Shown: positions 6,871 through 35,800 of the stretch, in pieces
Position numbering within the stretch: the first letter of the stretch is position 1
Layout of the letters: the number at the start of each line of letters is the position of its first letter
NCBI GenBank assembly: GCA_019695235.1
Contig: JAIBAI010000019.1
Location: 1-49,743, forward strand
DNA length: 49,743 nucleotides
Reading direction: 5' to 3'
DNA from: Bacteroidia bacterium
GTDB lineage: Bacteria > Bacteroidota > Bacteroidia > M30B66
Translations under genes and position numbers: made by a program
Notes under the pieces: model-generated
What the model was told of the DNA's origin: nothing
Database searches by the model: none
What the model saw: only the letters and a program-made list of their open reading frames with translations

Positions 6871-8007
6871 TTAATGGGTTTGTTTTACATTTTTCAGCCT
6901 CAGAATGGCATTTACCGGATAATGATCTGACAATTTTTTCCGGATGGTATGAAAATATACCGCATCAAAATAGGCAGGGTTGTATAAAATATAATCAATC
7001 CGCAACATCGGTATAAGGCCTGCATAGGTTGTTCCTAAGCCCGAACCTGCCGTGCGGAATGCATCTTTTAGCCCTTTTGAAATCTGATGGTAAGAATAAG
7101 AATAGGGGGTGTCATTGAAGTCGCCACAAACTATTACAGGATGCGGGCATAATGCAATGTGGCGGGCAATAACATCGGTTTGCCGCGCTCTTCTGATAAA
7201 TGCCCTGCGCATTTTTTCTATTATCCGGCGGGGACTTTCTGAATCCACCAATGTATCATTCTCTGCCAGCTCTTTTATTGCTTTATAGTCTTCTCTTTTA
7301 AACCGGATAGACTCAAGGTGCAAGTTATATACCCGAAAGGTATCCCCGTATGCTTTGATATCAGTGTACATTGAGATATTGTCAGAACTGTCACGGAACA
7401 TTATTTGGCCTTTCGACACTATCGGAAAACGACTAAAAGTGGCAATACCCCAATGATTTACCTTTTTCACATGGGCAGTGTGCTCAATATGATAGTTTCG
7501 CGCAGGCTGTATTTGCAATAGCGTATCCAGGGTATTGAATTTGCCTGTGTCTTCATAAAAGAATTCCTGAAAACACATCACATCAGCATTTTCTCTTTGC
7601 AATAACTCAAGGATACTGTTTCTGGTAAACTTGTTTCTGGTCCAGTTATATAAATCAAACAAACGTACATTGTACGAGGTGACATGTATTGTAGAGTCTG
7701 CCGCTTTAGCCTGTTCAATTTCACGGAACGAAGGAGGCGTACGCCATTGGTAGAGGTCATTGATTTTAACAGCACCAGCTGCAAGCAGAATACCTGAAAA
7801 AAGTGCCAGACGCCACCTAAAAAGCAACCAGAAAAGAAAGAAAAACAAATTGCTCAGGTAAAGCAAAGGGAAGCCAAGTCCGAAAAAAGCGGCTACCCAT
7901 AATTTAGCCGGACTTACAAACAAAGCCAGGTATGAAAGCAACAAGCCAAGCATGGCAATGATATTCACTGCGAACAACATTCTTTGCAAGACGCTCATAT
8001 ATTTCAT
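6871..8007 (-). CDS. Membrane-anchored endonuclease/exonuclease/phosphatase family protein
   Basis: The N-terminal third (residues about 8-100) holds three hydrophobic segments. The C-terminal part is an EEP-fold hydrolase: HVTSYNVRLFD, VMCFQEFF, HWGIATFSRFPI, VCGDFNDTPYS, RIDYIL and SDHYPV are the usual metal and phosphate-binding motifs of this superfamily, and all appear intact. Such proteins cleave phosphodiesters in DNA, lipids or inositol phosphates; the substrate here is unknown, with the active domain probably facing the periplasm. The ATG at 8007 (378 residues) is chosen because a TACTTTTG box (8014-8021, minus) lies just before it and overlaps the alternative TTG at 8016; an ATG at 7998 is also possible. 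It is divergent from the phosphoesterase-like gene. Confidence 0.9.
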   Translation of the reverse strand: MKYMSVLQRMLFAVNIIAMLGLLLSYLALFVSPAKLWVAAFFGLGFPLLYLSNLFFFLFWLLFRWRLALFSGILLAAGAVKINDLYQWRTPPSFREIEQAKAADSTIHVTSYNVRLFDLYNWTRNKFTRNSILELLQRENADVMCFQEFFYEDTGKFNTLDTLLQIQPARNYHIEHTAHVKKVNHWGIATFSRFPIVSKGQIMFRDSSDNISMYTDIKAYGDTFRVYNLHLESIRFKREDYKAIKELAENDTLVDSESPRRIIEKMRRAFIRRARQTDVIARHIALCPHPVIVCGDFNDTPYSYSYHQISKGLKDAFRTAGSGLGTTYAGLIPMLRIDYILYNPAYFDAVYFHTIRKKLSDHYPVNAILRLKNVKQTH

Positions 8008-8013
8008 GGCTTC

Positions 8014-8021
8014 CAAAAGTA
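8014..8021 (-). promoter_or_regulatory. -7 promoter box of the EEP gene
   Basis: On the minus strand the sequence reads TACTTTTG, an exact TAnnTTTG match, ending 6 nt before the ATG at 8007. No clear -33 TTTG was found. Confidence 0.62.
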
Positions 8022-8082: not shown

Positions 8083-8090
8083 TATCTTTG
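8083..8090 (+). promoter_or_regulatory. -7 promoter box of the phosphoesterase-like gene
   Basis: TATCTTTG ends 4 nt before the ATG at 8095, predicting a leaderless transcript. The divergent minus-strand box lies about 65 nt away, so this is a compact two-way promoter region. Confidence 0.7.
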
Positions 8091-8094
8091 GGCC

Positions 8095-9153
8095 ATGTCA
8101 GTAATTCGTTACCTGCTGATTTTTCTCCCATTTATCACTGTTGCGCAAAATGACCCGGTGGTTTTTTCAGTGTATTGCATTGGTAATACAGGGCTTGACA
8201 CTATTCCATCGGCAGCTGTGCAACTGATGGCCTTTGAAAGTTTCGATGATAGCTTAAGTAGTATCGTCTTTGCGGGGAATATCTCAGGTAAGGACTTAAA
8301 AAAAGCTTCTTTTGAGCAGCGCAAGAAGATTATGAATGCACAGTATTCGCTTTTTACAGCCTACCGCGGTCAGCTTGCCATCTTGCCGGGTGAAGCCGAA
8401 TGGAACGGTGCACGCAGATTCGGGCGCATAACCAACGAGCAATGCCGCAATTATAGCAATGCATGGTTTACTGAAAATAGCATTGTAAAAAACAGTACCT
8501 CAGGCTGTTACCAGGAAGGGCCGGCGCCTGAATTACATGAATTGCGCAAGGGGCTTTGCCTTATCACCTTCGATTCGCAATGGTGGCTTCAGAACGGAAG
8601 AATTACATTCAACCGGAAAAAACAAAAGCAGCAACTTGCCCGGTTTGATAGTTTGTTATCGAAAGCGCATGAACAACAACAACAAATTCTGGTAGCAAGT
8701 CATCATCCCCTTATCAGCAATGGTAAGCACATTCATCATAAACAGCCGCTACGATTCTTGATGAATTATTCTCCACTTAAAATATTTTCGCTATTTGGCG
8801 CTGACAGGGCATTAAGGCAAGATTTGAATCAACCCAGGTATAATCGTTATCGTTCAGGTATTCAATCAATCATTCAAAAATATCCCGGGCTTATTTTTAT
8901 AGCTGCACATGAGTATAATATGCAGTATATCAAGACCAAAGGCGTTCACCATATCATCAGCGGTTCAGGAGCTGAAGTTCGTTCAATAGACCGTTACAGA
9001 TATCAGGCACGATTTATGGACGACCTCCAGCCTGGCTTTTTCAGAATCACCTTTCATCGTTCAGGGAACGTATATTTGCATGCTTACGGGGCAAAAGACA
9101 GGGGCGAATATTGGAAAACCCTTATGTTTACGCATCCAAAAACCTTTGAATAA
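8095..9153 (+). CDS. Exported metallophosphoesterase-like protein with degenerate metal site
   Basis: A signal peptide (cleavage likely after TVAQ, residue 18) is followed by a calcineurin-like phosphoesterase layout. In active relatives the order is D-x-G, G-D, G-N-H-D, H, G-H-x-H. Here the matching places read IGNTG (Asn31 for Asp), FAGNISG (Asn62 for Asp), LPGEAEW (Glu100-Ala101-Glu102 for Asn-His-Asp), VASHHPLISNGKH (His203/His204 kept) and IAAHEYN (Ala271-His272-Glu273-Tyr274 for Gly-His-x-His). Several metal ligands are therefore gone, although the frame is intact and 352 residues long. I infer a non-catalytic or altered-function homologue rather than a pseudogene. A dedA gene follows 9 nt after the stop, so the two are probably co-transcribed. 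Confidence 0.8.
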   Translation: MSVIRYLLIFLPFITVAQNDPVVFSVYCIGNTGLDTIPSAAVQLMAFESFDDSLSSIVFAGNISGKDLKKASFEQRKKIMNAQYSLFTAYRGQLAILPGEAEWNGARRFGRITNEQCRNYSNAWFTENSIVKNSTSGCYQEGPAPELHELRKGLCLITFDSQWWLQNGRITFNRKKQKQQLARFDSLLSKAHEQQQQILVASHHPLISNGKHIHHKQPLRFLMNYSPLKIFSLFGADRALRQDLNQPRYNRYRSGIQSIIQKYPGLIFIAAHEYNMQYIKTKGVHHIISGSGAEVRSIDRYRYQARFMDDLQPGFFRITFHRSGNVYLHAYGAKDRGEYWKTLMFTHPKTFE

Positions 9154-9162
9154 CCTATTGTT

Positions 9163-9807
9163 TTGAATCAGATCTGGCATTATATCACGGAGTTCTTTTC
9201 GTACTTTCAACCTGAATTTATCATCAGTTACGGGGGCTTATTATTATTGCTCATTGTTGTCTTTGTTGAAAATGGCCTGTTTTTCGGCTTCTTCCTTCCC
9301 GGTGACTCACTGATGTTTACCGCAGGTCTATTGTGTGCTACAAAGGTGCTGCCCCACACGCTTGGCATGGTGCTTGGTTCAGTATTTCTCACTGCAATTG
9401 CCGGCAGCATGGTGGGTTATTATTTTGGGTTTAGGGCTGGTCCGGGCTTATATTCACGTAAAGATTCATTTTTTTTCAGAAAGAGCCATCTCAAAGCTGC
9501 TGAAGACTTTTACGAGCGCTATGGCTTACGCACATTAATTATTGGCCGTTTTCTTCCAGTAATCAGGACCTTCGCTCCCATTGTTGCAGGCCTGATAAAA
9601 ATGAAATTTTGGCGCTTTATGTTTGGAAATATCCTGGGCGCAGGAGCCTGGGTAGGCTCATTGGTAACCCTGGGGTATTACTTTGGTATAGTTTGGCCTG
9701 ACTCAGAAAAATACCTGGGTTACATCATCCTTATTTTAATTCTAATTACTGCCCTACCGGTTATCAAAACCCTAGCAGGGGTCAACAAAAAGGCCTCAGG
9801 CAAATGA
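9163..9807 (+). CDS. DedA family membrane protein (VTT domain)
   Basis: This is a 214-residue inner-membrane protein with the DedA signature: VENGLFFGFFLPGDSLMFTAG (residues about 32-52), the membrane-dipping Gly-rich stretch GSMVGYYFGFRAG, and the conserved RFLPVIRTFAPIVAG with its essential-type arginines, then hydrophobic helices to the C-terminus. DedA/VTT proteins act as lipid scramblases or flippases (for example of undecaprenyl phosphate or phosphatidylethanolamine) and support membrane homeostasis. The start is a TTG 9 nt after the preceding stop; the next Met is inside the conserved core, so the TTG is needed. It is followed by a two-way terminator. Confidence 0.92.
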   Translation: MNQIWHYITEFFSYFQPEFIISYGGLLLLLIVVFVENGLFFGFFLPGDSLMFTAGLLCATKVLPHTLGMVLGSVFLTAIAGSMVGYYFGFRAGPGLYSRKDSFFFRKSHLKAAEDFYERYGLRTLIIGRFLPVIRTFAPIVAGLIKMKFWRFMFGNILGAGAWVGSLVTLGYYFGIVWPDSEKYLGYIILILILITALPVIKTLAGVNKKASGK

Positions 9808-9825: not shown

Positions 9826-9856
9826 AAAAAAGCCGGTTTCAGCAACCGGCTTTTTT
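9826..9856. terminator. Bidirectional terminator between dedA and tRNA-Phe
   Basis: AAAAAAGCCGGTT (9826-9838) and AACCGGCTTTTTT (9844-9856) form a 13-bp stem with a 5-nt loop. The A-run and T-run give a U-tract on either strand, so it can end both the dedA mRNA (plus) and the tRNA-Phe transcript (minus). Confidence 0.93.
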
Positions 9857-9857
9857 G

Positions 9858-9930
9858 TGGTACCTGCTGGAATCGAACCAGCGACACAAGGATTTTCAGT
9901 CCTTTGCTCTACCAACTGAGCTAAGGTACC
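9858..9930 (-). tRNA. tRNA-Phe (GAA)
   Basis: Read on the minus strand this gives a 73-nt cloverleaf. The acceptor stem is GGTACCT/AGGTACC, the D-arm is AGCTCAGTTGGTAGAGC, the anticodon stem is AAGGA/TCCTT around loop CTGAAAA (anticodon GAA at 9897-9895), and the T-arm contains GGTTCGATTCC. The discriminator base is A. CCA is not encoded (the next bases are CAA), so it must be added by the nucleotidyltransferase. Confidence 0.98.
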
Positions 9931-10035: not shown

Positions 10036-10779
10036 GTGATTACAAAAATAATTGCTGATCTGGGGAACACCTCATTGAAACTAGCCTGTTTCAGAGGAAA
10101 AGAACTTTTAAAAGCTGTAAGAGTAGCTATTACAAACGAAGATGACATAGAAGAAGCTTTTCTCAAACTAATGGTCTACAACCCTGAGATAGCTTATTTG
10201 AGCTCTGTGGCTGGCAAAAACAAAGGTCTTGAGAAGTGCTTGAAAAGGGCAAAAATTAATACTATACAGATTTCAAATCAATGGCCTGTTCCAATCAGTA
10301 ACAAATATCTGAGTCATGAAACACTGGGAATTGACCGATTGGCAAATGCCGTTGCGGCTGCACTGCTTTTTCCGAAACAACCCGTAGTAGTGATTGATGT
10401 TGGCACCTGCATCAAATTTGATTTTGTGAATAAGCACAATGAATATTTTGGAGGCTCCATCTCTCCCGGTATAGACATGCGTTTTAAAGCACTCCATCAA
10501 TTTACAAATGCACTTCCGCTGATCAACCGTTCGGAAGAAGTGTTTCTAATTGGCAGAAACACACAAGAATCAATAAATTCAGGCGTAATCAATGGCGCCC
10601 TTGCTGAAGTAAATGGTATACTTGATCAATACCTGATGACACATAAAAACCTACAAATTGTCGTTACCGGAGGTGATCAAATGGTATTCGAACGTAACAT
10701 CAAATTCAGTTTTGCTTCTGAACCCTGGCTTACCCTCTACGGATTAAATGAAATACAAAATCTTCATGACCCAATTTAA
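10036..10779 (+). CDS. coaX: Type III pantothenate kinase
   Basis: CoaX phosphorylates pantothenate with ATP, the first step of coenzyme A synthesis, in the cytoplasm. The 247-residue protein has the ASKHA-fold motifs of the type III enzyme: IADLGNTSLKLA (P-loop-like phosphate 1, residues 6-17), TLGIDRLANAVAA (near residue 95), VIDVGTCIKFDFV (near 118), FGGSISPGIDMRFKALHQFTNALP and VVTGGD near the C-terminus. Length is normal. The GTG start is fixed by the promoter box 4 nt upstream. It overlaps the next gene and probably forms an operon with an outer-membrane protein and lptC, a neighbourhood common in Bacteroidota. Confidence 0.96.
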   Translation: MITKIIADLGNTSLKLACFRGKELLKAVRVAITNEDDIEEAFLKLMVYNPEIAYLSSVAGKNKGLEKCLKRAKINTIQISNQWPVPISNKYLSHETLGIDRLANAVAAALLFPKQPVVVIDVGTCIKFDFVNKHNEYFGGSISPGIDMRFKALHQFTNALPLINRSEEVFLIGRNTQESINSGVINGALAEVNGILDQYLMTHKNLQIVVTGGDQMVFERNIKFSFASEPWLTLYGLNEIQNLHDPI

Positions 10780-12136
10780 ACCTTTCTGGGTAACACTGCT
10801 ACTTTCTGTAGTATTTATTAAGCCAGTTGTTTCTCAAGAAAGCCTCTCACCTTATAGTCGGTTTGGTATTGGGCACATTAGCAATGGGAGTCAGCCTGTG
10901 ATTTCATCCTTAGGAAACGCAGGAGCAGCTTTCAGTGATTCAGCAACATTAAACCTTTCTCAACCTGCTTCACTTGCATCATTGGGTGCAGGCCTGGTAA
11001 TTCTTGAGGCTGGTTTCACTGGTTCTGTCGGGCAATACAGTTTTAAAAACCAAACTGGGCTTGGCACCACCGCTGGTTTTGGCTATCTGGCATTGGCGGT
11101 TCCGATAGTTAAAAACCGCTGGGTCACAAGTTTTAGCCTGACTCCGATAAGCTCTGCAGCTTTTGCATTGATAGATACTTTGAATTATCCGGGCGGGGTG
11201 CCTGTTGAAGTAAGCAGCTCTGCCAGTGGAGGTTACTCAAAACTTTCATTCGCCAATGCACTTCGATTAACCAAAAATTTCACTATTGGTGTAGGCTTGC
11301 ATTATGTTTTTGGCCGGATGGATTACAACACTCAATCACGCTTTCCCAATGATCCAAATATTAGAAGCTCGGCCATAACAAAGACGAATTGGCTTAACGG
11401 ATTAGATTACAATGCCGGTATTCAGCACCAGATTCGTTTTCACAGGCCTTTCAATTGGGAGCGTGACAGCATTGGAAGAAGAACCGGAAAACATATTTAC
11501 AAATCGGCTGATTCACTTCACCTGATTAGCGGTTTTTGCTTCTCACCTACCCATAATATTAATGGGCGTGAAGGAGTGCTGGCCAGGTCATATCTAAACA
11601 ATTTACAATTCCTCGATACTTTATATTACAGTGATCAAACCAAAGGTACTATGGTCATGCCCATGAATGTTGCATTATCATTTGCTTTAAAACATTCACG
11701 CGACAAATGGCTGGTCATTGCAGAAGCAGCATATACTGACTGGAATCGTTTTAGAAAATTCGGTATACAAGATTCAGTACGTTCTTCATACAGCCTTTCA
11801 ATTGGCGGCCAATGGCATCCAAGACCCGAAAGTATGTACTCAAGCTGGCAAAACTATTTTCAGAGAATAAAGTACCGGGCAGGGTTTTATTATTCTGACG
11901 GCTATTTAAAACCCCAAGGTACGCCATTGGCAGAAATGGGATGTAGCATAGGCTTTGGTTTGCCTTTCAGTTGGAAAACCTATGCAGGTAAAAAGGCAAC
12001 ACATTCAATAAACCTCTCTCTCTCGGCTTCTCAAAGGGGCTTTCTTACTGACAGCCAATTGAAAGAACAAATAATTAAGGCTTCAATAGCCATTACGTTC
12101 AATGACCGTTGGTTTCACAAACGGCAGTATGAATAA
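10748..12136 (+). CDS. Outer-membrane beta-barrel-like protein of the coaX-lptC locus
   Basis: This is a 462-residue exported protein with a signal peptide ending near PVVSQE. It opens with SLSPYSRFGIG, a motif I associate with a Bacteroidota family of uncharacterised outer-membrane proteins. Many alternating hydrophobic strands and aromatic strand ends (YSFKNQTG, SFSLTPISSAAF, YAGKKATHSINLSLSASQRG) suggest a FadL/OMPP1-like barrel. It starts within coaX (32-nt overlap); an ATG at 10766 would also leave a signal peptide. Its stop overlaps the lptC start by 8 nt, so translation may be coupled. The location beside lptC suggests a link with outer-membrane biogenesis, but the function is unknown. 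Confidence 0.88.
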   Translation: MKYKIFMTQFKPFWVTLLLSVVFIKPVVSQESLSPYSRFGIGHISNGSQPVISSLGNAGAAFSDSATLNLSQPASLASLGAGLVILEAGFTGSVGQYSFKNQTGLGTTAGFGYLALAVPIVKNRWVTSFSLTPISSAAFALIDTLNYPGGVPVEVSSSASGGYSKLSFANALRLTKNFTIGVGLHYVFGRMDYNTQSRFPNDPNIRSSAITKTNWLNGLDYNAGIQHQIRFHRPFNWERDSIGRRTGKHIYKSADSLHLISGFCFSPTHNINGREGVLARSYLNNLQFLDTLYYSDQTKGTMVMPMNVALSFALKHSRDKWLVIAEAAYTDWNRFRKFGIQDSVRSSYSLSIGGQWHPRPESMYSSWQNYFQRIKYRAGFYYSDGYLKPQGTPLAEMGCSIGFGLPFSWKTYAGKKATHSINLSLSASQRGFLTDSQLKEQIIKASIAITFNDRWFHKRQYE

Positions 12137-15605: not shown

Positions 15606-18600
15606 CTATCGAATTACCGTTACCCGCCCGATATATTCTTTTGCATGTTTTTTAAAACTACGGCAGATAATTCTGTATGAGTAAACGCCATTCATCACTA
15701 GTTTACCGTTAAAGGTACCATCCCAGCCATGTGAAAAATCTGTAGTTCTGAAAATCAGTTCTCCGTCGCGGTTAAAGATGAGCATCTCAAATTCATCTAT
15801 ACCATAGCCTTTAGGAAGGAACACATCATTTCTGTCGTTGCCGTTAGGCGTAAAAGCATTTGGTATATAGAGTCCGTATCCAAAGATTACATCAAAGTTC
15901 ACAGTATCCAGAGCCGGACACCCCGCCGAATCAATCATATACAGAGAAAGCTGCTGGTTGTCGCGGTAACTGCCGTAGGTGTGACCACAATCACTGCAGA
16001 ATACCGCATACTGAGGCTCCCAGAGATAGGAGAATGCCCCTTCTGCCCAAACCAATAAGGTATCTCCGGCAAACATAACGGTATCATTCATCACCCGTAT
16101 ATCCGGCTTGTACACTGCAAACTCTGCTTCGGCAGTATCCGCTCCACAATGATTAGTCGTTTCAAGAATCACAGAATATTCCCCGTATTCATTGGCACAT
16201 TGCACAAATGATTTGTTATTGAAAACCAGCGAATCTGCAATATTCCATTTCCAGCTTTCTGCATACAAGCCAACTTCCTCTATGTTGATGCAATCGCCCA
16301 GACACACCGGGTTGGGGAGCGCTCCTATAAGCGCTACCGGAAGCGGGTCCTTTATGATCTCCCGCTCGTCGTACCAGGTACATCCGGCTGAATCAATAGT
16401 TAATGAAACCAGACCTGCTCCTGTTACGGTATATTCAGGGGCGGTGCTTTGATCTGACCAGATAAACCTCACCCCCGGTGGTACCAGCGGACTAAGTACA
16501 AACGACTGTAATTCGCAAAGTAGTGTATCGGCTCCGAGGCCAAAGCTAAGATCAGTTACAGTAACAACAATGGTATCAGAAGCCAGGCATCCGTTTCGTT
16601 CAATGGCCAGCCAGAAGGTCCCGGCGCCGGTAATCTCTAAATTAGAAGCAGTGGATTGGTCACTCCAGGAATAGGCAGTACCAGGCTGCAAAGCGGGGGC
16701 AAGCAGCAAGCTGTTGTTCAGGCAGATGTTGGTATCATTGCCCAGACTGAAGCGGTCGTCCTGCAGATGTACCACTACCGAATCGGTTTCATAACACGAA
16801 GCAATACGCGATTCTACCCTGTAAATACCTGGGTCAAACACAGTGGTATCTGGCGCTGTTCCGCCGTTGTTCCAAAGCCATGATACTCCCGGATATGCCG
16901 TTGTCGCCTCGATGCGTACATCGCTGTTATAGCAGAGTATCAAACTGTCGGGCAAATGCAGGTTGATTCGCAGTGAATCAACCTGCAACAAGTCAGAATA
17001 TGAGCATCCCAGCGAATCGGTTCGCAGCCAATAGGACCCAGGTTCGGTAATCAGCAGGGGTAAGGTGCTTACTGTACCTTCACTCCAGGTCAATACCCCT
17101 CCAGAAACTAAAGGGTCAAGAAAAATGGTATCGCCTGTACACAAAACAGTATCATTGCCTAAGTCAACCTGCAAACTGAGTACCTCTACCTCAATGGTAT
17201 CCGCAATGGAGCATCCGTCAAGGCTCAGTTGCAACCAGTAGGTTCCGGCAGCACCTGCGATAATGGAGGTTTCAGTTGAACCGGTTGACCATAGAAACGC
17301 CGGTGGTTCGGGATTCAAAGGCGGGGCAAGTGTAATGGTTGTTCGTGAACAGATTACGGTATCGTTCCCCAGTCCATTGATCAACGGAACGGCATGAACC
17401 TGAACGGTATCATGGTAATCGCAGCCATTGTAATTTACAAGTACCCTGTATTCACCCGGTGTCGAAACCAGTATTTGCGAAGTTGTTTCGCCTGTTGACC
17501 AAAAACAGAAGGCATTCAGCAGGTTTACTTCCAGTGCAATGGTTTGATTGGTACAGACTGCCGTATCGTTTACAAGCTCAAATGGGTTCCCTCCTGCTCC
17601 AATACTAACCTTTTTTACTATTGTATCACGAACACCTGCTTCAAGATTGTGCGCAATAAGTCGTACCGGATATTCAACCACTCCGGCAGCTGTAGGCGGA
17701 TATTCATACACAGGCGACAATTCAGTTGATACCGCACCCGGTATGCCGAAGTCCCACTCATACACAATATTGGGCCCCGTAGATGAATAATTTGTGAAGA
17801 AAATAGAATCAGAGGTGCATGACTTGGCAAAATCAAAATCTACATCAATGGCTACAGGATCAAAAGGTTCACAACCCGGCGTAGGATTTGGAATAATCTC
17901 AATACGTACCCCGATTTCACCAACGGCCACTTCCGGGTATACTACCTGTAGGTATAAATTCCCCTCAATGGTAGGAGGAATACAAGGAATTTCATTAATC
18001 GTAAAAAAATCATTCCAGCAATAAGTACTAATCAGTGACGAACATGTTAATCCATAATACTGACGCATCCTTATGTTTTCCGGAGAGCCGTAATTGCTCA
18101 ATCCGGCAGTAATCATGTTTACTTTAAAATTTACAGTATCAGGACCTGCATAAGAAAAAACAAACCAGGATGACCGCATCCCCTCTGGGGCCTTAATGCA
18201 GTCTGCGTTCGAACCATCTTCTGCAAAGTCAGTGCCGATGGTTTGACAATTCACAGGAGCCTTAAGGTTATATACGCCCGTTGTGGCCGAGCTTCCTGAA
18301 ACTGCTGACATGCAATAATCACCCGGGTTATTCCTGAACAGAATGCGTGGTTGTATTTGGTTGGTATCACCGGCATAGCAGGAGTTAAACCACAGATAAT
18401 ATTCGCCGGGAACTAAGCAATACTGGCGCCACCCGTTATAGGGTGCTGCAGGCGACAAGTACGGCAACGTAAGGGCTCCCGAAGGACCGCTGATATCAGT
18501 CAGCACCGAATCGGTGGGTTGTCTGCGTTTTACCAACTGGTAATAAATCTGTGCTCCTGCCGCTCCGGCCAAGGTATTAAAATTGGTCAGAACTTGTCCT

Positions 18601-21600
18601 GGCTCGTCAATGGTGAATTTATACCAGATTGATTTCTTGTTTCCATTCGGACAGGTATAACCCAGGTTGTATGACTGATCGGCAGCATCCACCGTAGCGC
18701 AGGTAAGGTTGCCCCATGCCCCCAGGTATTCGGTATCGTATTCGAGCGAAAAGGGGGTGTAAGGTGGCTCTGTTTCATTAAGGCCTATACGGTTGGCACC
18801 GGAAATAAAATCGTATGGCGCACCCTGTGAAACGTTGGGAATTGGCATAAATCGCACTTCAACATCAATTGAAAGCGTTGGCCTTTGTGCCGCCTCATTG
18901 AGGTCAACCAAAATATAATACCGGGTTTTGACAATTTCAGAGGCACAAATTAGGTTGAGCCTGTCAACAGTAACCGTCGGGTACAAATTGCCACATTGGC
19001 CATAAATGGTTCTTGGATGGTTGTTCACAACGAAGGTCAGACCGGCACTGTTGGTTGAATCCAGTTCTCCCATCGCATAAAGATCACCAAAAGGAATATT
19101 GGCATCTACATCCGACTGAAATACCTGAAAAGGTAACAATGAATTCCTGGAGGCGTTATACTGTCCGGTAAGGTTATTTACTTTCACCTGCACCGTTCCG
19201 GGTCCTTCAACTACAAATGTGTACCACAGATTTCGCCGGTTGGCACCCGGCTGAATACCGTTTTCGTTATAATAGGCATTGTTAGGTACATCGGGGTAAA
19301 TGGGTGCATAATGGGTGTAAAAAGAGCTGCTGCAGTCGGAGGTGGGATCGGAAGCTGAAGCACCTGTACTGCAATAAAATATGTCGGCACTTGCGTTTAA
19401 TTCTGCGGGGAAGTTTGGGTGGCTGTCGCCAGTTTTCCCCCCATGATATACGCCATCCGAAGGAATTTCTCCAAAGTCGTATGCATTTTTTGCAAAATCA
19501 AAACGCGATCTCCCCAGTTCGTCAATGGTGATTACCGGTGTGACGGAAACGCAGTTTTGATTGGGCCCGGCAAAGACACAGAGGGTATAGGTTCCGGGGT
19601 CAAGTTGACATACCTGCAAATCATTGCCTACCGATTCGCATTGAATCAAGGCAGCAGCCCCTGGAAACAGCAATGAATCGGTTCTTACATCCATCTTATA
19701 AAGCTTCCGCTGAAAGTTGCTGATACCACTGATACGCAGAAAACTTGCTTCAGTCAGTTCGAAAACATAGTAAGCCACTCTTTCGGTGAATGGGCAACCA
19801 TCAACGGGATGATCTGTAAATGGTAAATCATTTGCCGGGCGGAAATTTTCGGTACACAGCGTATAAGTACCTGTACGTGCGGGTATAGCCTGGGTTCCGT
19901 TGTTTTCAAAGTCAAGTGGCAGGCCATTGTTTGCTACGCACGCCTTATATGGCCTGTTGTAAAAGGGGCCTGGAGAAATAGAAGTGTCTGCTGCAACACT
20001 GATTAATGAGGCTTGTCCAATACTCCAGCCTCCGGAAATAACACCTCCGTGGCCTATGGCGTTGAGATGCGAGAAATTATTGTCGTACCCTGCCCCCTGC
20101 CCGTAGCTGACAATGGTGTACCAGCCGGCGGGCAAAAAGGTACAGCCCGGACTTGTGAATGAGCTGCCGTAACAACTGTTTCCTGCATAAGGTGCTAAAC
20201 TTAATGCAGCAATTCCATCTTTGGCCCTTCCGGCAAATAAGCGGAAGGAAGAAAAATTTGAATAGTGGTTGGTGATTGTAATAGCTGCTTCTCTGCTTAG
20301 GTAAAATTCGCGGTAAATCAACTTTGTTGAATTATTGCAGGGGCTAAGGCCTGCAATAACAGACGGGTTTTCAAGGCAGCTAAAGGTGTCACGGGTTGAG
20401 ATTGCGGTCATTCCTAAGGCGATGACATCTCCTAAATCTTCAGCCTTTTCTGGCGATGAGAATTTTGTTTTCGGCTGCTGCCAGTTGAAGATGGGTTTAG
20501 TTGAAAGACCAATTTCAGTGCTATCACCAAAAGTTAGAAACGAATACTTTCCCGGAACCAAACAATACTTTTGGGTGGTGTATATCTGGTCCCAGCCAGG
20601 ATAACCGTAAGGTGCTGAATTATAAAATGCGCAACCTGCCAGTGGATCAAGCCCATCAATTTTTTCCGGCCATGTATATTTATTCTGAGCAGCAGCCAAA
20701 GCATCGGCACTGCCAGCGTAAAGCAGTGAGATTGATAAACGATTCAGGGCATCTGTTCTGTAATTTGCGCTTGTTATGCTAAGCATACCTGAATCAGGCT
20801 GCCCGTCATTATTAGCATCCCCGATGGTAAACTCGCGGAAGATTGCCCTGTCAGCTACCGGATTACACAGCACGGTATCCGGCAATACCGTTTTAACACA
20901 TGAAAATGGCGTTGGCACAGCATTATAGGTGCCATTTAGTTGCAGAGGAGCCCCGCCGTTGATTTGGTCAACATCTGCAGCAGTGACCAGTGAAAAGTCA
21001 CCATTACCGACTAGTTCAACGCTAATTCCCATACGTACCCTGGTGCCCAGTTGGTTGTTACTACATGAGAGCCAATCGTTTAAAGCATAGGGGTCTTTCG
21101 CCAGTAGCTGAATACTGTATGTACCGGCAGGAAGACAGCTAATAAAAATTTTTCCATCCGTGTTAAAAATATCCTGCCGATAGAGATCATTCACCGCATC
21201 AATTGAACCACAACTTGGGCCAATTCCTTTGCTAAAAAGTCGCATGACCATCCCGTGAGTGAGATACTCCCAATTGCAGATGGAGGCACTAAAAACACTT
21301 GCGTTAAAATAAATATGGGCTGCCTCAGTTAAGGTAAACTCAAACCAGGTTGTAAGGCTGTAACGCTTGCCGGATATCACAAGGCCACTATCAGGATTTA
21401 CTGTGCCACAGGATACAGAATCACGATTCATGCTTGCCTGACAAGAAAAATAATCGTTAAGCTGATAGCTGTTTCCAGGTGAAATGGATCCAAATTTATT
21501 CGATGCGGGGAAGCTGTTGCTCACAGGTACGGCCCCCTGAGTGGTGCCCTCTCCCATGTGCCTAATATAAATGTTAGAGGTGCTGTTATTATCATAGTGT

Positions 21601-22544
21601 GATATTAGCTGAACGGAATATGTTGTTAACGGTTTTAACTCATCACACGAGAGGTTCACATATTCATAATTATTGTACCGCTGACAGTCGCGGATTACCC
21701 GAAGCGCTGCATAAGGTTCAGTGCGAATATCTCCTTCAAAGAAACGAAGCGCATAAGCCTGGGTATTGGTTAGCTGAAATTGAAGTATGTCAACTGAATT
21801 GTCAGTAGTAAACGTGTACCAGGCACTTTTTGTAAAAGTTAAAGAATCATCTCCTAACTGAGGACAAACCTCACTTTTTTCATTCATACTTAAACAGTTC
21901 CATGTCAGGGTAGTTGAAAAAACTGAATTAAGTGTACCAAGATGACTCGCATTCTCATAAAAGTCATTGCTGTTGATGGTACTTGGCCGGTCAATCTCAA
22001 TCCGGGGATAGATGAATCCGGTGGCAGTACCTTGTTTAACTCCCACCTGTAATAGATATTCTCCGGGCGGCATACACGGATTATCGGAAGTAGAACCTAA
22101 TATATTGATGGGTGAGATCTGCGAAGCCCTTTCCGCATCGGTTGGTAAGCACTGCCCCGCTCTAAAGAGTGTGAATGCAACATCAGTGGCAGCCAAGCCA
22201 CCCGTTCCTGTCAGGTGTTCCCAAACAGAAACTACTAGTTTTCGGTGTGTTGTAAGCCGGAAACGATACCAAACCGTCTTACGAAACAGAGGAAAATACA
22301 GAAACTCATTAAACTGCTGTGTTGCATTTGTGATTTGAACGGTATCGCCGTAGAAGGTTCCCATCCCGTACCCTTCATCAGGAAATACAATTTCCATTGG
22401 GCTGTTGCAATTATCGTTTACAGGTGCCTGTGCAGACAATTGACTTGTGAACATTACAAACAGTAGGACGAACAATTGGTACAAATTCCTGCTGATTTGC
22501 CATTTGCGGCTTTGCTTGTGTTTTATTAGGGACAAGGAAGTCAA
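15606..22544 (-). CDS. Giant secreted multidomain protein with T9SS/gliding-motility C-terminal domain
   Basis: About 2,300 residues with a signal peptide (hydrophobic core FVLLFVMFTSQLSAQ). Residues about 40-1560 hold roughly eight related beta-sandwich modules with phrases such as TVWYRFRLT, SAWYTFTTD, TTWFEFTLT and CLPAGTYSIQLLA, resembling PPC-type domains. A PKD domain follows (about 1570-1655), then about six Ig-like repeats with LGNDTVLC-type openings (about 1655-2070), another PKD-like module and the CHU_C domain (about 2225-2312: AFTPNGNDRNDVF, IFNRDGELIF, HGWDGTFNG). Secretion by the type IX system and a surface or adhesive role are inferred from the family. The TTG at 22544 overlaps a weak -7 box (AATATTTG), so the true start may be slightly downstream, for example TTG at 22535. 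Confidence 0.92.
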   Translation of the reverse strand: MTSLSLIKHKQSRKWQISRNLYQLFVLLFVMFTSQLSAQAPVNDNCNSPMEIVFPDEGYGMGTFYGDTVQITNATQQFNEFLYFPLFRKTVWYRFRLTTHRKLVVSVWEHLTGTGGLAATDVAFTLFRAGQCLPTDAERASQISPINILGSTSDNPCMPPGEYLLQVGVKQGTATGFIYPRIEIDRPSTINSNDFYENASHLGTLNSVFSTTLTWNCLSMNEKSEVCPQLGDDSLTFTKSAWYTFTTDNSVDILQFQLTNTQAYALRFFEGDIRTEPYAALRVIRDCQRYNNYEYVNLSCDELKPLTTYSVQLISHYDNNSTSNIYIRHMGEGTTQGAVPVSNSFPASNKFGSISPGNSYQLNDYFSCQASMNRDSVSCGTVNPDSGLVISGKRYSLTTWFEFTLTEAAHIYFNASVFSASICNWEYLTHGMVMRLFSKGIGPSCGSIDAVNDLYRQDIFNTDGKIFISCLPAGTYSIQLLAKDPYALNDWLSCSNNQLGTRVRMGISVELVGNGDFSLVTAADVDQINGGAPLQLNGTYNAVPTPFSCVKTVLPDTVLCNPVADRAIFREFTIGDANNDGQPDSGMLSITSANYRTDALNRLSISLLYAGSADALAAAQNKYTWPEKIDGLDPLAGCAFYNSAPYGYPGWDQIYTTQKYCLVPGKYSFLTFGDSTEIGLSTKPIFNWQQPKTKFSSPEKAEDLGDVIALGMTAISTRDTFSCLENPSVIAGLSPCNNSTKLIYREFYLSREAAITITNHYSNFSSFRLFAGRAKDGIAALSLAPYAGNSCYGSSFTSPGCTFLPAGWYTIVSYGQGAGYDNNFSHLNAIGHGGVISGGWSIGQASLISVAADTSISPGPFYNRPYKACVANNGLPLDFENNGTQAIPARTGTYTLCTENFRPANDLPFTDHPVDGCPFTERVAYYVFELTEASFLRISGISNFQRKLYKMDVRTDSLLFPGAAALIQCESVGNDLQVCQLDPGTYTLCVFAGPNQNCVSVTPVITIDELGRSRFDFAKNAYDFGEIPSDGVYHGGKTGDSHPNFPAELNASADIFYCSTGASASDPTSDCSSSFYTHYAPIYPDVPNNAYYNENGIQPGANRRNLWYTFVVEGPGTVQVKVNNLTGQYNASRNSLLPFQVFQSDVDANIPFGDLYAMGELDSTNSAGLTFVVNNHPRTIYGQCGNLYPTVTVDRLNLICASEIVKTRYYILVDLNEAAQRPTLSIDVEVRFMPIPNVSQGAPYDFISGANRIGLNETEPPYTPFSLEYDTEYLGAWGNLTCATVDAADQSYNLGYTCPNGNKKSIWYKFTIDEPGQVLTNFNTLAGAAGAQIYYQLVKRRQPTDSVLTDISGPSGALTLPYLSPAAPYNGWRQYCLVPGEYYLWFNSCYAGDTNQIQPRILFRNNPGDYCMSAVSGSSATTGVYNLKAPVNCQTIGTDFAEDGSNADCIKAPEGMRSSWFVFSYAGPDTVNFKVNMITAGLSNYGSPENIRMRQYYGLTCSSLISTYCWNDFFTINEIPCIPPTIEGNLYLQVVYPEVAVGEIGVRIEIIPNPTPGCEPFDPVAIDVDFDFAKSCTSDSIFFTNYSSTGPNIVYEWDFGIPGAVSTELSPVYEYPPTAAGVVEYPVRLIAHNLEAGVRDTIVKKVSIGAGGNPFELVNDTAVCTNQTIALEVNLLNAFCFWSTGETTSQILVSTPGEYRVLVNYNGCDYHDTVQVHAVPLINGLGNDTVICSRTTITLAPPLNPEPPAFLWSTGSTETSIIAGAAGTYWLQLSLDGCSIADTIEVEVLSLQVDLGNDTVLCTGDTIFLDPLVSGGVLTWSEGTVSTLPLLITEPGSYWLRTDSLGCSYSDLLQVDSLRINLHLPDSLILCYNSDVRIEATTAYPGVSWLWNNGGTAPDTTVFDPGIYRVESRIASCYETDSVVVHLQDDRFSLGNDTNICLNNSLLLAPALQPGTAYSWSDQSTASNLEITGAGTFWLAIERNGCLASDTIVVTVTDLSFGLGADTLLCELQSFVLSPLVPPGVRFIWSDQSTAPEYTVTGAGLVSLTIDSAGCTWYDEREIIKDPLPVALIGALPNPVCLGDCINIEEVGLYAESWKWNIADSLVFNNKSFVQCANEYGEYSVILETTNHCGADTAEAEFAVYKPDIRVMNDTVMFAGDTLLVWAEGAFSYLWEPQYAVFCSDCGHTYGSYRDNQQLSLYMIDSAGCPALDTVNFDVIFGYGLYIPNAFTPNGNDRNDVFLPKGYGIDEFEMLIFNRDGELIFRTTDFSHGWDGTFNGKLVMNGVYSYRIICRSFKKHAKEYIGRVTVIR

Positions 22545-31290: not shown

Positions 31291-32891
31291 TCTTCTTTGC
31301 CATTACTGCCAATAGCCAGAATACCCGTTTTGTATTTATTTGCTGAGATACCAATGAGTAGTATTGATTCATTGCTGATTTGACAGCTTGCCCTTGGAAG
31401 CATCGGAAACTTATTCCGCTTTTCTGTTGATAGCGCATCTCTGGTATAATTACCATTACTTTTCATCGTCACAAGTACCGGAACCGCACGTTCAACATTG
31501 TTCATCACAGCAACTTTTCTGGCATCATTCTTTGCTGTATTTGCCTGATTATCGTTGAACACAAAATATATCTGGTCTTTATTTTGCGCAAACACATACG
31601 ATGAAAACCGGCCTCCATCATTTGCCGTTTCCTGAAATTTCGGAATATCGGCCGACCAGATAACCTGCCCTTGCCGGCTCATGTTAATTACAGCTATGCT
31701 ATTAAAGTTATATATGTAATTACAGTTCATCATGCCGGTACGGTAGTCCTGATAACAAATTTCATCAATTAAAAATTGTTCAGCAACTAGGGCATAACCA
31801 GAATCACCAAACTGAATAAAATGATCAAGCTTAAAATCAGGTAATTCCATATTGTCCCTTCCACGACTACCAATTCCTAAACTTGTCTTGAAAGAACCAT
31901 CAAAAATGCTCAGTTTTTTCTCAACTACCCCACCTGCATTCCGGTCAATTTTCATAAAAAATACCCCTTCGGTCTGGCGGGCCACATTACTTGCATAAAA
32001 GCCTGAAAAAGTAATCTGACCATTTGCTTCCGGAATAAACCGAATATCTACAATACGGTGTTCTGGCAACACTATTTCGTAATCTTCTACCTCAGATGAA
32101 TCTCCTGTAAATGTTACCAGACTGTATCTGTAAGATGCCTGTTCTTTGTTTCTGGCCTTTTTCTCCTGTGTTTCAAGACGGACTAATAAATAAACACGAC
32201 CGCTGGCATCAACTTTGGCGCTATGTACGCTAAATTTATTGCCGGCGTATGGAAACTCAATACTCCTGTTCAGGGTACTCTGAAGCTGCTCGTTAAATAA
32301 GATAAACTGAATTTTCTCCCTTTCGAATTTATCCCAGCGTTCTGAAAAGAAGGCAAGCATGGTGGAAGAATCTGCTGAATGCACAAAATTCAACCCTTCT
32401 ACCATGCTTTTACGGGTAGCACCAAATTCTGCAATTTTTGTTTCTTTCCCTTCCGGCTCCCCCTCCAGATTGTAAGGCCGGCCATACAATTCAATCTTAT
32501 CACGTGTTTTATTAAAGTATGTGGCAAACAGCACCGGATGCGAACCAATTTTTTCCAACACCTGGTATTCAAGTGATTTATCTCCTTTTGAGGTTTCCAA
32601 CTGAATCGGCCGGTTAAATTGTGGTAGTACCGTCAGATTATCAAGTCGCTGTATAAACGTTTTGCCTGGTGAAAAAAGGCGATCACTTGTACGACTTTGC
32701 ATTAAAATTCCTTCGTCCCAGTTGCCAATTACTTTAAAGCTTGCGGAACTTCCAGGCTTAAATACTTCTCCCCCCCATCGAATCTGTGCTTGGGCTTCAA
32801 GCTGTGAATGAAGCGTTGGCATTAGTATCAACAACAAACCACCAATTATGGTAGTCGCACCCACTATTTGATTTTTTATTGTTTGAATCAT
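31287..32891 (-). CDS. Exported protein coupled to tamB, unrecognised
   Basis: I do not recognise this 534-residue protein. It has a signal peptide (IIGGLLLILMPTLHSQLEAQA), and the mature part is rich in repeating beta strands of 45-60 residues with phrases like FATYFNKTRDKIELYGR, MLAFFSERWDKFEREK, VYLLVRLETQ and YALVAEQFLID, which suggests a beta-propeller-like fold. No catalytic motif is evident. Its ATG overlaps the tamB stop as ATGA, so its translation is probably coupled to tamB, implying a related task in outer-membrane assembly or surveillance; that is inference from context only. Expected location is the periplasm or outer membrane. Confidence 0.85.
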   Translation of the reverse strand: MIQTIKNQIVGATTIIGGLLLILMPTLHSQLEAQAQIRWGGEVFKPGSSASFKVIGNWDEGILMQSRTSDRLFSPGKTFIQRLDNLTVLPQFNRPIQLETSKGDKSLEYQVLEKIGSHPVLFATYFNKTRDKIELYGRPYNLEGEPEGKETKIAEFGATRKSMVEGLNFVHSADSSTMLAFFSERWDKFEREKIQFILFNEQLQSTLNRSIEFPYAGNKFSVHSAKVDASGRVYLLVRLETQEKKARNKEQASYRYSLVTFTGDSSEVEDYEIVLPEHRIVDIRFIPEANGQITFSGFYASNVARQTEGVFFMKIDRNAGGVVEKKLSIFDGSFKTSLGIGSRGRDNMELPDFKLDHFIQFGDSGYALVAEQFLIDEICYQDYRTGMMNCNYIYNFNSIAVINMSRQGQVIWSADIPKFQETANDGGRFSSYVFAQNKDQIYFVFNDNQANTAKNDARKVAVMNNVERAVPVLVTMKSNGNYTRDALSTEKRNKFPMLPRASCQISNESILLIGISANKYKTGILAIGSNGKED

Positions 32892-35800
32892 CTTAATTTT
32901 TTCTTGCGTAGCTCAGAGAGTGCTTCAAAATCTCTCCGATAGAACAGACCTATTCCCTGTGTATAAGGCACCCCATTGTACACTAAAAGATGTTGGTTTG
33001 AACGGTTAAAGACACGTATTCTTATGGTACCATCAGGATTTAATTTTGCTTCAATGTTAAATTCTCCCACGAGGTTGCTGGTATTTTGAACTGCGCTTTG
33101 AGGAATACCGGCAGTACCGAAGTTGCCATCAATCATTACCCTGTCGCCAAGAAGTTGTGTTGACCACATCAAGCGCAATTCTTCAGTATTGGTAGCATCA
33201 CCCTGTTTGTAATTCACCCCAAGCTTCACATCATCACTCAGCGCACCCAACATATTTGAAAGCTGCCCTGAGATCAATTCACTGGCGTTCACCCCACCTA
33301 ATCCGGCAATTTCATTGGCTCCTCCCTGGTTTGGCCAAAAATTACCCAGCATAATCAGTGCAAAAACCTGGCGATTTAACTCATCGTCACTTGCAATTTG
33401 TGAACGCAATAGATTTCTGGTTGCTTCATCTGCATTAGGCAATTGAATGTCGAACTTCACGGTAGGCTTCATCAACTTATCACTTAGATTCATGACCGCA
33501 TATACGTCAATCATGCGTTTGACTGTGGCACTTGAATCAATATTTTTCACAAGATTGTAAAGTGAAGTACGCACTTTATACAGTGCTGTAAGGTTAATAT
33601 CTGCATCATAAGGGTCGCCTTTGAAACTGATAGTTCCACCCGGTTGAAGTGTAAAGGGTTTTGAAACTACCAGATTAAATTGATAATCACCGCTTGTAAT
33701 TGTATAATCGCCAAACATATTAAAAGCACCTGCCTCCGTTACTTCCATGTGTAAATCAGCAGTACCTACCCCCCGAATCATATCACCGGTTTGAGGGTCA
33801 AAAATTAAAATCACATCGGCATCATTACTGATATTCAGGTTGAAATTCAACTCATATCCGGTATGGTTTATCAAATTGGCCTTTTTCCGGATGCGATTCG
33901 TCGTTTGCCCTGTTTTTTCGAAAGTGATAAAATCCTGACTACTTACCTCACCTGCATCAAATAAAGGAAGATAAAACTCGGTACCTTTTTCTGTTTTTGC
34001 GGTAATATCCATAACAATATTTTCTATGGGGCCATGTGCCCTGAAGCTACCGCTGGCAAAGGCTGTGCCATAGAATAAATCACTTTGAGTTTCATTGGTA
34101 TTCAGTGCATGTATGCGTTTTGATTGCAATTTTATGTCGAAATTAAGATCGTTAAAATGGCGGTGATTGAGCTTAAAATCCAATAGGGCAGTGTTTCCAA
34201 ACTGGTCATTTACCAGAATATTTTTGGCAGTGATTTGATTTTTCTCGAGTATAAATTCATGGGTAAATGAATAGGTAGTATTCAACAGGTCAACTGTCAG
34301 GGCTGTTCTTTTCAGGTTGATACTTCCTTCTGCCTGTGGTTCTGAGGGGCTTCCCGAAAGATGGATTTTCCCATCTGCATAGCCATCCACGATATTAGAA
34401 AAGATATCCTTCAGGTAACGTTCAAAGAGCTCAACTTTTAGGTTATTGAGACTGATATCCAAATCGAGGCTATTTTTATCTCTTTCCGGATAAATGCCCC
34501 CTTTGAATGCCATTCGTGGTACATTTGCTGCCGTAAGTGCCCCTTCAAGGTTAATACGTTTTTCAGCCGGAATCCAGGTACTTGCCAGTAATCCATCACC
34601 AAAGAAATCTCCGTTCAGGCTAATAGACTGAAATTTCAGGTTACTTTTAAAATAGGGTTCACCTTTCAGGCCGCCAAGAGAAATTATACCAAAGGCTTTT
34701 CCCTGAAGGTTAATTCCGGCAGATAGCAATAATGGGTTTATATTACTTATATTGAAACGATCGAGTACCACATCAAGTTCATCCTGTGGTCTGTTTCCGA
34801 TTACCCCGTCAATTCTGATAAATTCATCCAGATGCGAAAACGATAGATTTTCGAAGGTGTATGCCGCTGTATCAATTGCAACAAAGTTACCTTCATTAAC
34901 CTGCCATAGTGAATCTCCCATAAGAATCAACGAAGGCAGTACCTCTAACCTGGCCGACTTGCCTTGAAATGCAAGCCTGAGATTTAGTTGCGCATCAGGC
35001 TTGCTCAGTATATTTCTTGATGCCCATTGCAGGTTTATGTCTGCATCACCGCTATCAGCCTTGATTTCAGAGCGGATGTGTTTAATTTTCAGGCTGTCAG
35101 TAAGCTGTAAAGTCTGGGTATTCAGTATTGCTGTTAATTTTTTTCCGGATGTATTCACATCAAAATCAAAAGCATCAAAGCCTAGCTCAGCAACGTGCAT
35201 TTGTGGAATCTCGGCCTGAAAACGAATTAACTCTCTTGAAGAAGAATAGCTCAGGTTGAGCTCCCCGCCTTTGTTTACCTGTATTGAGGGTACAAATAAT
35301 GCCGAAAGCAGCCGTGTATCTTTCAGCTTAACAAAGGCGGTAATTTCCTGTGCTGCCTTTGTAGTATTGTCACCTGCAATTGCAAACCAGTCGGGCAAGG
35401 CCTGATTGAGGGTTTTTGCAAATGCCGGAAGAATATCCTGAACAGCAATAGAACCATGAATGCCGGCGTCAAACATATTGCTGTAAAATTCAATATCCCG
35501 GTTGTTTTGATCGCCCTCAAGTTCTAACAGAAGATCATCAATGTTATAGCGGCCTTTGCCATATTTAACCAATGCTTCGCTGATTTCCAGGTGACCGGTA
35601 AGATTATCAATATGCTCACCTTCTAAGTCTGCTATCAATTCAGCTGACACAGTCATTAGTGAATCGGTTTTCCACAAGCCCAAAGCAGCCGGGTCGGCAT
35701 TTCCCACCGAAGCATTCATCTGCAATGAAGGCCTCTTCAAACCTAAATTGGCACTCAGATTGGCTTCTATTTTCAAGTGCTGATCGGCAACTTTCACACG

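Follow-up and report, generated by a model that had tools for sequence, protein, structure and literature searches.

The window analysed here, the whole of a 49,743-nucleotide stretch of contig JAIBAI010000019.1 in the Bacteroidia assembly GCA_019695235.1, carries a gene for a metallophosphoesterase-like protein (hereafter MPE) between a divergent gene of the endonuclease/exonuclease/phosphatase (EEP) type and a dedA gene (Table 1). The MPE reading frame opens with ATG and has no internal stops. Immediately upstream lies the box TATCTTTG, which we take, together with the pattern TAnnTTTG, to be the Bacteroidota -7 type promoter motif, and a TAnnTTTG box is placed 4-5 nt 5' of the MPE start codon in nine of ten orthologues within the order. 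The dedA start codon follows 9 nt past the MPE stop on the same strand, and with a terminator-like stem after the pair, the two genes probably constitute one operon. The first-pass annotation had described an intact frame, a good promoter and a co-transcribed dedA, and on each of these points the present analysis agrees with it. Export of the protein is predicted from a probable signal peptide.

Table 1. Coordinates of the MPE-dedA locus and of motifs within the MPE gene (residue numbers are those of the window MPE).
Feature	Position	Strand	Remarks	Basis
EEP (endonuclease/exonuclease/phosphatase) gene	6871..8016	-	divergent; conserved neighbour in the order	
Promoter -7-like box TATCTTTG	8083..8090	+	4 nt 5' of the MPE ATG; leaderless-type arrangement	sequence
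Window MPE, putative pseudo-metallophosphoesterase with PAP/ACP5-like fold	8095..9153	+	352 aa; export predicted	ORF, AlphaFold2 model, Foldseek/VIA
Probable signal peptide, residues 1-17	8095..8145	+	cleavage near TVA/Q	by eye; model helix 2-17
Motif I, Asn31 for Asp (GNTG)	8185..8187	+		alignments
Motif II, G61-N62-I63-S64	8275..8286	+	bridging Asp deleted; Tyr ligand replaced by Ser64	alignments
Motif III, E100-A101-E102 for Asn-His-Asp	8392..8400	+		alignments
Motif IV, H203-H204 (HHP)	8701..8706	+	kept	alignments
Motif V, A271-H272-E273-Y274	8905..8916	+	first His kept, second lost	alignments
Order-specific conserved block, residues 297-318	8983..9048	+	10/11 active-invariant positions kept; candidate interaction surface	
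dedA (VTT domain), downstream gene in the probable operon	9163..9807	+	only PF09335 match found in the window genome	
Terminator-like stem, 13 pairs, T runs on both sides	9826..9856		closes the MPE-dedA pair	

The interval from 9826 to 9930, in which this 13-pair stem separates dedA from a tRNA-Phe gene on the opposite strand, probably holds a shared two-way terminator. Elsewhere in the window, positions 10748-12136 encode an outer membrane protein of the FadL type (PF03349, E 9e-4, under the cut-off) between coaX-like and lptC-like genes recognized by eye, and its product could be BamG-like. Positions 15606-22544 encode a 2312-aa protein that has PKD domains and ends in a type IX secretion domain (CHU_C), and positions 32888-37417 a TamB-like protein of 1509 aa (PF04357).

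Fold, orthologues and genomic context of the MPE

The metallophosphoesterase fold, which the first-pass annotation had called clear together with the order of motifs, is borne out by structure prediction. An AlphaFold2 model of the window MPE built with 31 relatives reached a mean pLDDT of 87.5 and a pTM of 0.87, with weaker values in the motif II and motif III loops (74 for residues 61-70 and 80 for residues 101-110), and the model of the orthologue from genome G003 gave comparable figures (pLDDT 88.1, pTM 0.89). Foldseek placed Plasmodium PfGAP50 (3tgh) first (E 5.5e-11), with a dimetal phosphatase from zebrafish and the purple acid phosphatase (PAP) of rat next; VIA-align superposed the model on human PAP (2bq8) with Z 27.3 and an rmsd of 2.8 over 267 residues, and on 3tgh with Z 26.6 and an rmsd of 3.0 over 273 residues. 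A profile of the MPE family searched against solved chains also found 3tgh best (E 2e-8), along with TRAP/ACP5 chains, and because these three approaches converge, the window MPE is classified as a PAP/ACP5-like metallophosphoesterase by modelled fold. The sequence by itself gives little sign of this: its match to Pfam PF00149 (Metallophos) is 14.7 bits, below the gathering cut-off of 21.5, against 30.4 and 31.4 bits for the active orthologues L002 (from G001) and L006 (from G002). No family was assigned to it in PHROGs or NCBIfam, and its 352 residues have no match to the Omp85 barrel family PF01103.

The order was sampled by 10 genomes, which are identical to the family sample. Each holds one MPE copy, and since the arrangement of divergent EEP gene, MPE and dedA recurs in all 10, the copies can be treated as syntenic orthologues. 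The ligands are intact in seven of them, which carry the PAP motif set GDNxY, GNHD and GHxH, so that the window protein descends from an active-type family; they are lost in the window MPE and in two species of genus g4 (genomes G003 and G005). The g4 proteins are partly altered, reading GNTG/GDNVY/PGDRDW/HHP/AHEQ (L003) and GNTG/GDNVF/PGERDW/HHP/AHEH (L004). The first-pass annotation had asked whether the substitutions and the dedA linkage are conserved among orthologues: the linkage is, throughout the order, and the substitutions are in part, in three genomes and not in the seven with intact sites. A second member of the MPE family was absent from the window genome, whose three other PF00149 matches are all different proteins. 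A contig scan with a single MPE protein as query gave no match.

How often the ligands were lost within the order depends on the tree considered. A species tree built from rpoB and IF2 pairs g4 with the intact G001 (UFBoot 98) and G002 with the window genome (92). The MPE tree from all columns joins the window MPE to g4 (75), and once the motif columns are removed g4 goes with G001 (56) and the window-g4 grouping is gone. A single origin of the loss in the order was not adopted, as the motif-free MPE tree and the species tree disagree with it, and AU tests rejected none of four topologies. The loss occurred either once, which leaves the intact G001 unexplained, or twice in parallel.

The adjacent DedA gives the locus a possible biochemical setting. 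In PF09335 searches the window genome has a single match and each of nine order relatives has two, and the best NCBIfam match of the window DedA is PRK10847 (E 6e-35, below the cut-off). The acidic residues (ENG..PGDS) and the basic motif GRFLPV(I/V)RT are present in all 10 orthologues. A phylogenetic study assigns undecaprenyl-phosphate (UndP) flipping to the COG0586 DedA subfamily, with acidic residues in the first and basic residues in the second reentrant helix, and notes fusions of COG0586 DedA proteins to PAP2 phosphatases (PMC10127716). A phosphatase adjoining DedA is therefore plausible biology. A BacA-type undecaprenyl-pyrophosphate (UndPP) phosphatase is encoded in the window genome, and a role of the MPE as substitute for BacA is not supported: BacA was found in seven of the 10 order genomes, including those of the window, G003 and G005, and the three genomes that gave no match have a completeness of 80-86%.

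Ligand loss in the window MPE and in distant relatives

Motifs II-V of the MPE family were mapped onto PAP by profile alignment to 2bq8; the mapping of motif I, the roles of the ligands and their assignment to metal 1 or metal 2 are assumed from general PAP chemistry rather than taken from a metal-bound structure of the MPE family. An active dinuclear PAP has seven metal ligands and a catalytic His. Two of these ligands, H203 and H272, are left in the window MPE, and the catalytic His is Ala101. The residues lost from the first metal are the motif I Asp, the Tyr and the second His of motif V; the bridging Asp has also gone, and the two His on the side of the second metal persist beside a new Glu. 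Most of this had been recognized from the sequence alone, namely Asn31 in place of Asp, Glu-Ala-Glu at 100-102, a retained SHHP at 202-205 and AHEY at 271-274. Asn62 had been misread as a substituted Asp: it aligns with the Asn of GDN, and the motif II Asp is missing through a one-codon gap. Loss of the PAP-type Tyr of GDNxY, at Ser64, adds to the earlier list. Because all seven core positions are kept in 99 of 104 homologues, the substitutions in the window MPE are not attributable to chance.

One exception, L038, prompted further searches by pattern, by family and across the phylum. The pattern PG[DE]RDW was matched 23 times, across 22 of the 395 genomes, and only five of these matches fall in homologues; the codon pattern MGN spells Ser as well, so that some of these matches do not contain Arg. 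The family search yielded matches in three of 13 genomes, and a phylum-wide search seeded with variants in 139 of 395. The resulting set of 143 aligned homologues is a biased sample, since 39 come from the variant-seeded searches and loci were fetched for the best matches only. Fourteen variants were flagged and 12 kept. L030 was dropped because its N-terminus is cut by a contig end, and L215 because its open reading frame is cut at an in-frame TAG and its motif I-III residues are intact. With its ligand motifs intact and its frame interrupted by a single in-frame TAG (codon 100 of the match), L215 presents the opposite state to the window MPE.

The 12 variants comprise the window MPE with L003 and L004 of g4; L038; L202; and L194, L195, L196, L197, L204, L205 and L211, fused proteins that form one clade (support 1.0) spanning families f2 and f49. 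All 12 have lost the motif I Asp (to Asn in 10 and Gly in two), carry an acidic residue for the motif III Asn (Asp in 10, Glu in two) and lack the catalytic His, which is replaced by Arg in six, Lys in three and Gly, Phe or Ala in the others. The first His of motif IV and the first His of motif V are retained in every variant, and the bridging Asp in 11, being lost only in the window MPE. The AAHEY of the window MPE is approached by the AAHDY or AAHDF of three f49 fused variants (L204, L205 and L211), all fitting AAH[DE][YF]. L038 has an intact sister, L206 (0.98), and L202 lies beside the intact L201 and L199, so that both are of separate origin and the altered site has no fewer than four origins in total. 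When one base of an Asn codon is changed at random and nonsynonymously, an acidic residue results with p 0.15-0.29 (kappa 1.3-4); an acidic outcome in each of four origins is therefore unexpected by chance (p 0.0005-0.007, a rough guide that ignores chemical preference).

The f2 and f49 variants occupy large reading frames of 857-1320 aa. The frame of L038 is similarly large and carries an Omp85 barrel (PF01103, E 7.7e-10, in a barrel scan of this protein only). The f2 genomes with variants also hold intact MPE paralogues, of which none was seen in the window genome. On one contig of G326 the fused variant L196 stands tail to tail with the intact stand-alone L198, an arrangement that suggests paired dead and live copies.

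That relatives have acquired the same replacements more than once speaks for a function that has shifted repeatedly, not for decay. As a tentative proposal, to which we would give rather less than even odds, they could define a recurrent alternative active site in the PAP-like fold of envelope proteins of Bacteroidota, in which the motif I Asp becomes Asn or Gly, the motif III Asn becomes Asp or Glu and the catalytic His becomes Arg or Lys, a side-chain cation taking the place of the first metal and a one-metal or phosphate-holding second site persisting; such a site would have at least four origins and be fixed in the old clade of large fused proteins, with the window MPE a further reduced and DedA-coupled form. 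No paper on such a ligand swap was found in a literature search that is weak on subscription journals.

Constraint on the window MPE and rival explanations

Constraint was assessed at 19 motif positions and at 42 non-motif positions, the latter chosen for conservation of >=90% among 28 stand-alone active relatives that do not belong to the order. The motif positions are changed at nine sites in the window MPE, at six each in G003 and G005 and at none in the active members. At the non-motif positions the G003 and G005 proteins differ at four and five sites, within the range of the seven active members of the order (3-8), and the loss in g4 is therefore targeted. The window MPE differs at 14, which by this comparison shows targeted loss together with more general change and makes it the most altered member. 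Of 93 positions that do not vary among the seven active members it keeps 68, against 77 in G003 and 73 in G005. Retention is high at residues 146-166 (6/6), 196-215 (6/6) and in the order-specific block near the C-terminus, and low around the loops of motifs II, III and V.

A recently released gene that is decaying behind a still unbroken frame would account for the 25 changed order-invariant positions, the several deletions relative to orthologues and the existence of orthologues with intact sites. The length changes are, however, all in frame, and when four active orthologues were evolved neutrally until nine motif positions had changed, only three of 2000 runs were without a stop. Branch codon models reject omega=1 on the window branch on both the species tree (lnL -10427.45 vs -10413.93) and the gene tree (-10409.82 vs -10396.53), averaging over time before the ligand loss; dS is saturated, and the omega values themselves are therefore unreliable. 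The window branch measures 0.88 for MPE and 0.21 for rpoB+IF2, a ratio of about 4.2 (calculated by hand on the species topology) that the active copy of G002 matches (0.66/0.16), other tips ranging from about 1 to 6 with rpoB missing or partial in G001, G005, G007, G008 and G009. The conserved promoter argues against decay as well, as does the like change in g4, under normal constraint, and elsewhere. The first-pass annotation had held that intact orthologues combined with relaxed selection on this copy would mark a decaying gene; half of this is found, in that intact orthologues exist and the window MPE has changed at more of the conserved positions than the active members have. Its preference for a pseudoenzyme over decay is supported by fold, frame, promoter, operon and the outcome of the neutral simulation, and most strongly by the presence of the same altered site in independent lineages. 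Neutral decay of the window MPE is accordingly judged unlikely. An error of assembly or alignment, conceivable in a draft genome of 116 contigs, is still far less probable, given that synteny is intact and that codon-level substitutions of the same type occur in the separately assembled G003 and G005.

The chief rival, improbable for the window MPE though less so than decay, is a remodelled enzyme in which a basic Arg or Lys stands in for the first metal and the second site, with its added carboxylate, holds one metal ion that supports a different phosphoester reaction or some other chemistry. In its favour, the set of residues on the side of the second metal (motif II Asp, motif III acid and two His) is complete in 11 of the 12 variants, nine have Arg or Lys at the position of the catalytic His, and the convergent pattern is long established in the fused f2/f49 clade. 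Against it, the metal-site roles derive from general PAP chemistry and profile alignment, and the window MPE is the worst equipped of all, since its bridging Asp is deleted and its basic residue is Ala. Remodelling is thus a stronger explanation for g4 and the fused variants than for the protein studied here.

We consider, with a probability of roughly 0.64, that selection maintains the window MPE as a pseudo-phosphatase in which catalysis has been given up and which probably binds a ligand or serves as a scaffold in partnership with DedA. It would be an exported, stably folded PAP-like protein for which the two-metal phosphoesterase reaction is presumably no longer possible, the reaction that the ancestral enzyme catalysed having probably been abandoned in this lineage. 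Such a protein would be kept for binding, either of a phosphorylated ligand or of a partner protein, on the periplasmic side of the inner membrane, where it would most likely act with the adjacent DedA; the residual pocket of E100, H203 and H272 may hold one metal ion or a phosphate. Because seven genomes with intact ligands share the dedA linkage, it predates ligand loss. The linkage cannot serve as proof of a regulatory role, as active copies have it too, and the earlier suggestion of a DedA regulator consequently gains little from a linkage that is constant across the order. The protein may serve DedA as a binding partner or by holding a ligand.

Comparison with known systems

To our knowledge, most of the pseudo-enzymes known to have a metallophosphoesterase fold are eukaryotic, as are Vps29 and, with some debate about its status, GAP50; a search of the literature for pseudoenzyme together with metallophosphoesterase, thin in its coverage of subscription journals, gave no match. 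Vps29, which is among the structural and profile matches of the MPE, differs from it in being a small cytosolic eukaryotic protein that is not PAP-like and has lost other ligands. In retromer its phosphoesterase fold is described as a protein scaffold (PMC4256932). The closer parallel is PfGAP50 (Plasmodium glideosome-associated protein 50), a PAP fold with lost ligands that reads GDQP at motif IV and GHDN at motif V; unlike the window MPE, it loses the motif IV His, and it is eukaryotic, at 15% identity. GAP50 is a membrane-linked anchor (PMC8949495) that is nevertheless listed as an acid phosphatase (PMC8949495, PMC4256932), and ligand loss is therefore no proof of inactivity. PAP/TRAP (ACP5; 2bq8, 1ute) shares the fold of the window MPE and the motif set of its active orthologues, the difference being that the window protein lacks the motif I Asp, bridging Asp, Tyr, motif III Asn, catalytic His and second motif V His.

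Among bacterial proteins, the Omp85 'Metallo' subfamily joins a PF00149 domain to an Omp85 barrel; its description calls the fused domain a metalloprotease and, in its treatment of the subfamily, makes no mention of ligand loss (Heinz and Lithgow 2014, PMC4104836). Variant L038 with its PF01103 match resembles this subfamily, and the proteins in the clade of seven fused variants are similarly large, whereas the window MPE is barrel-less. Omp85-PF00149 fusions, and scaffolding phosphoesterase folds such as Vps29, are thus already described. The locus studied here adds a bacterial family in which the same ligand swap recurs, alongside intact sister enzymes whose gene neighbourhoods are identical. 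This constitutes a natural experiment, one operon with and without catalysis, in which partnership with DedA by chemistry or by binding becomes testable. As a warning for annotation, PF00149-type proteins of Bacteroidota, Omp85 fusions included, are not all phosphatases.
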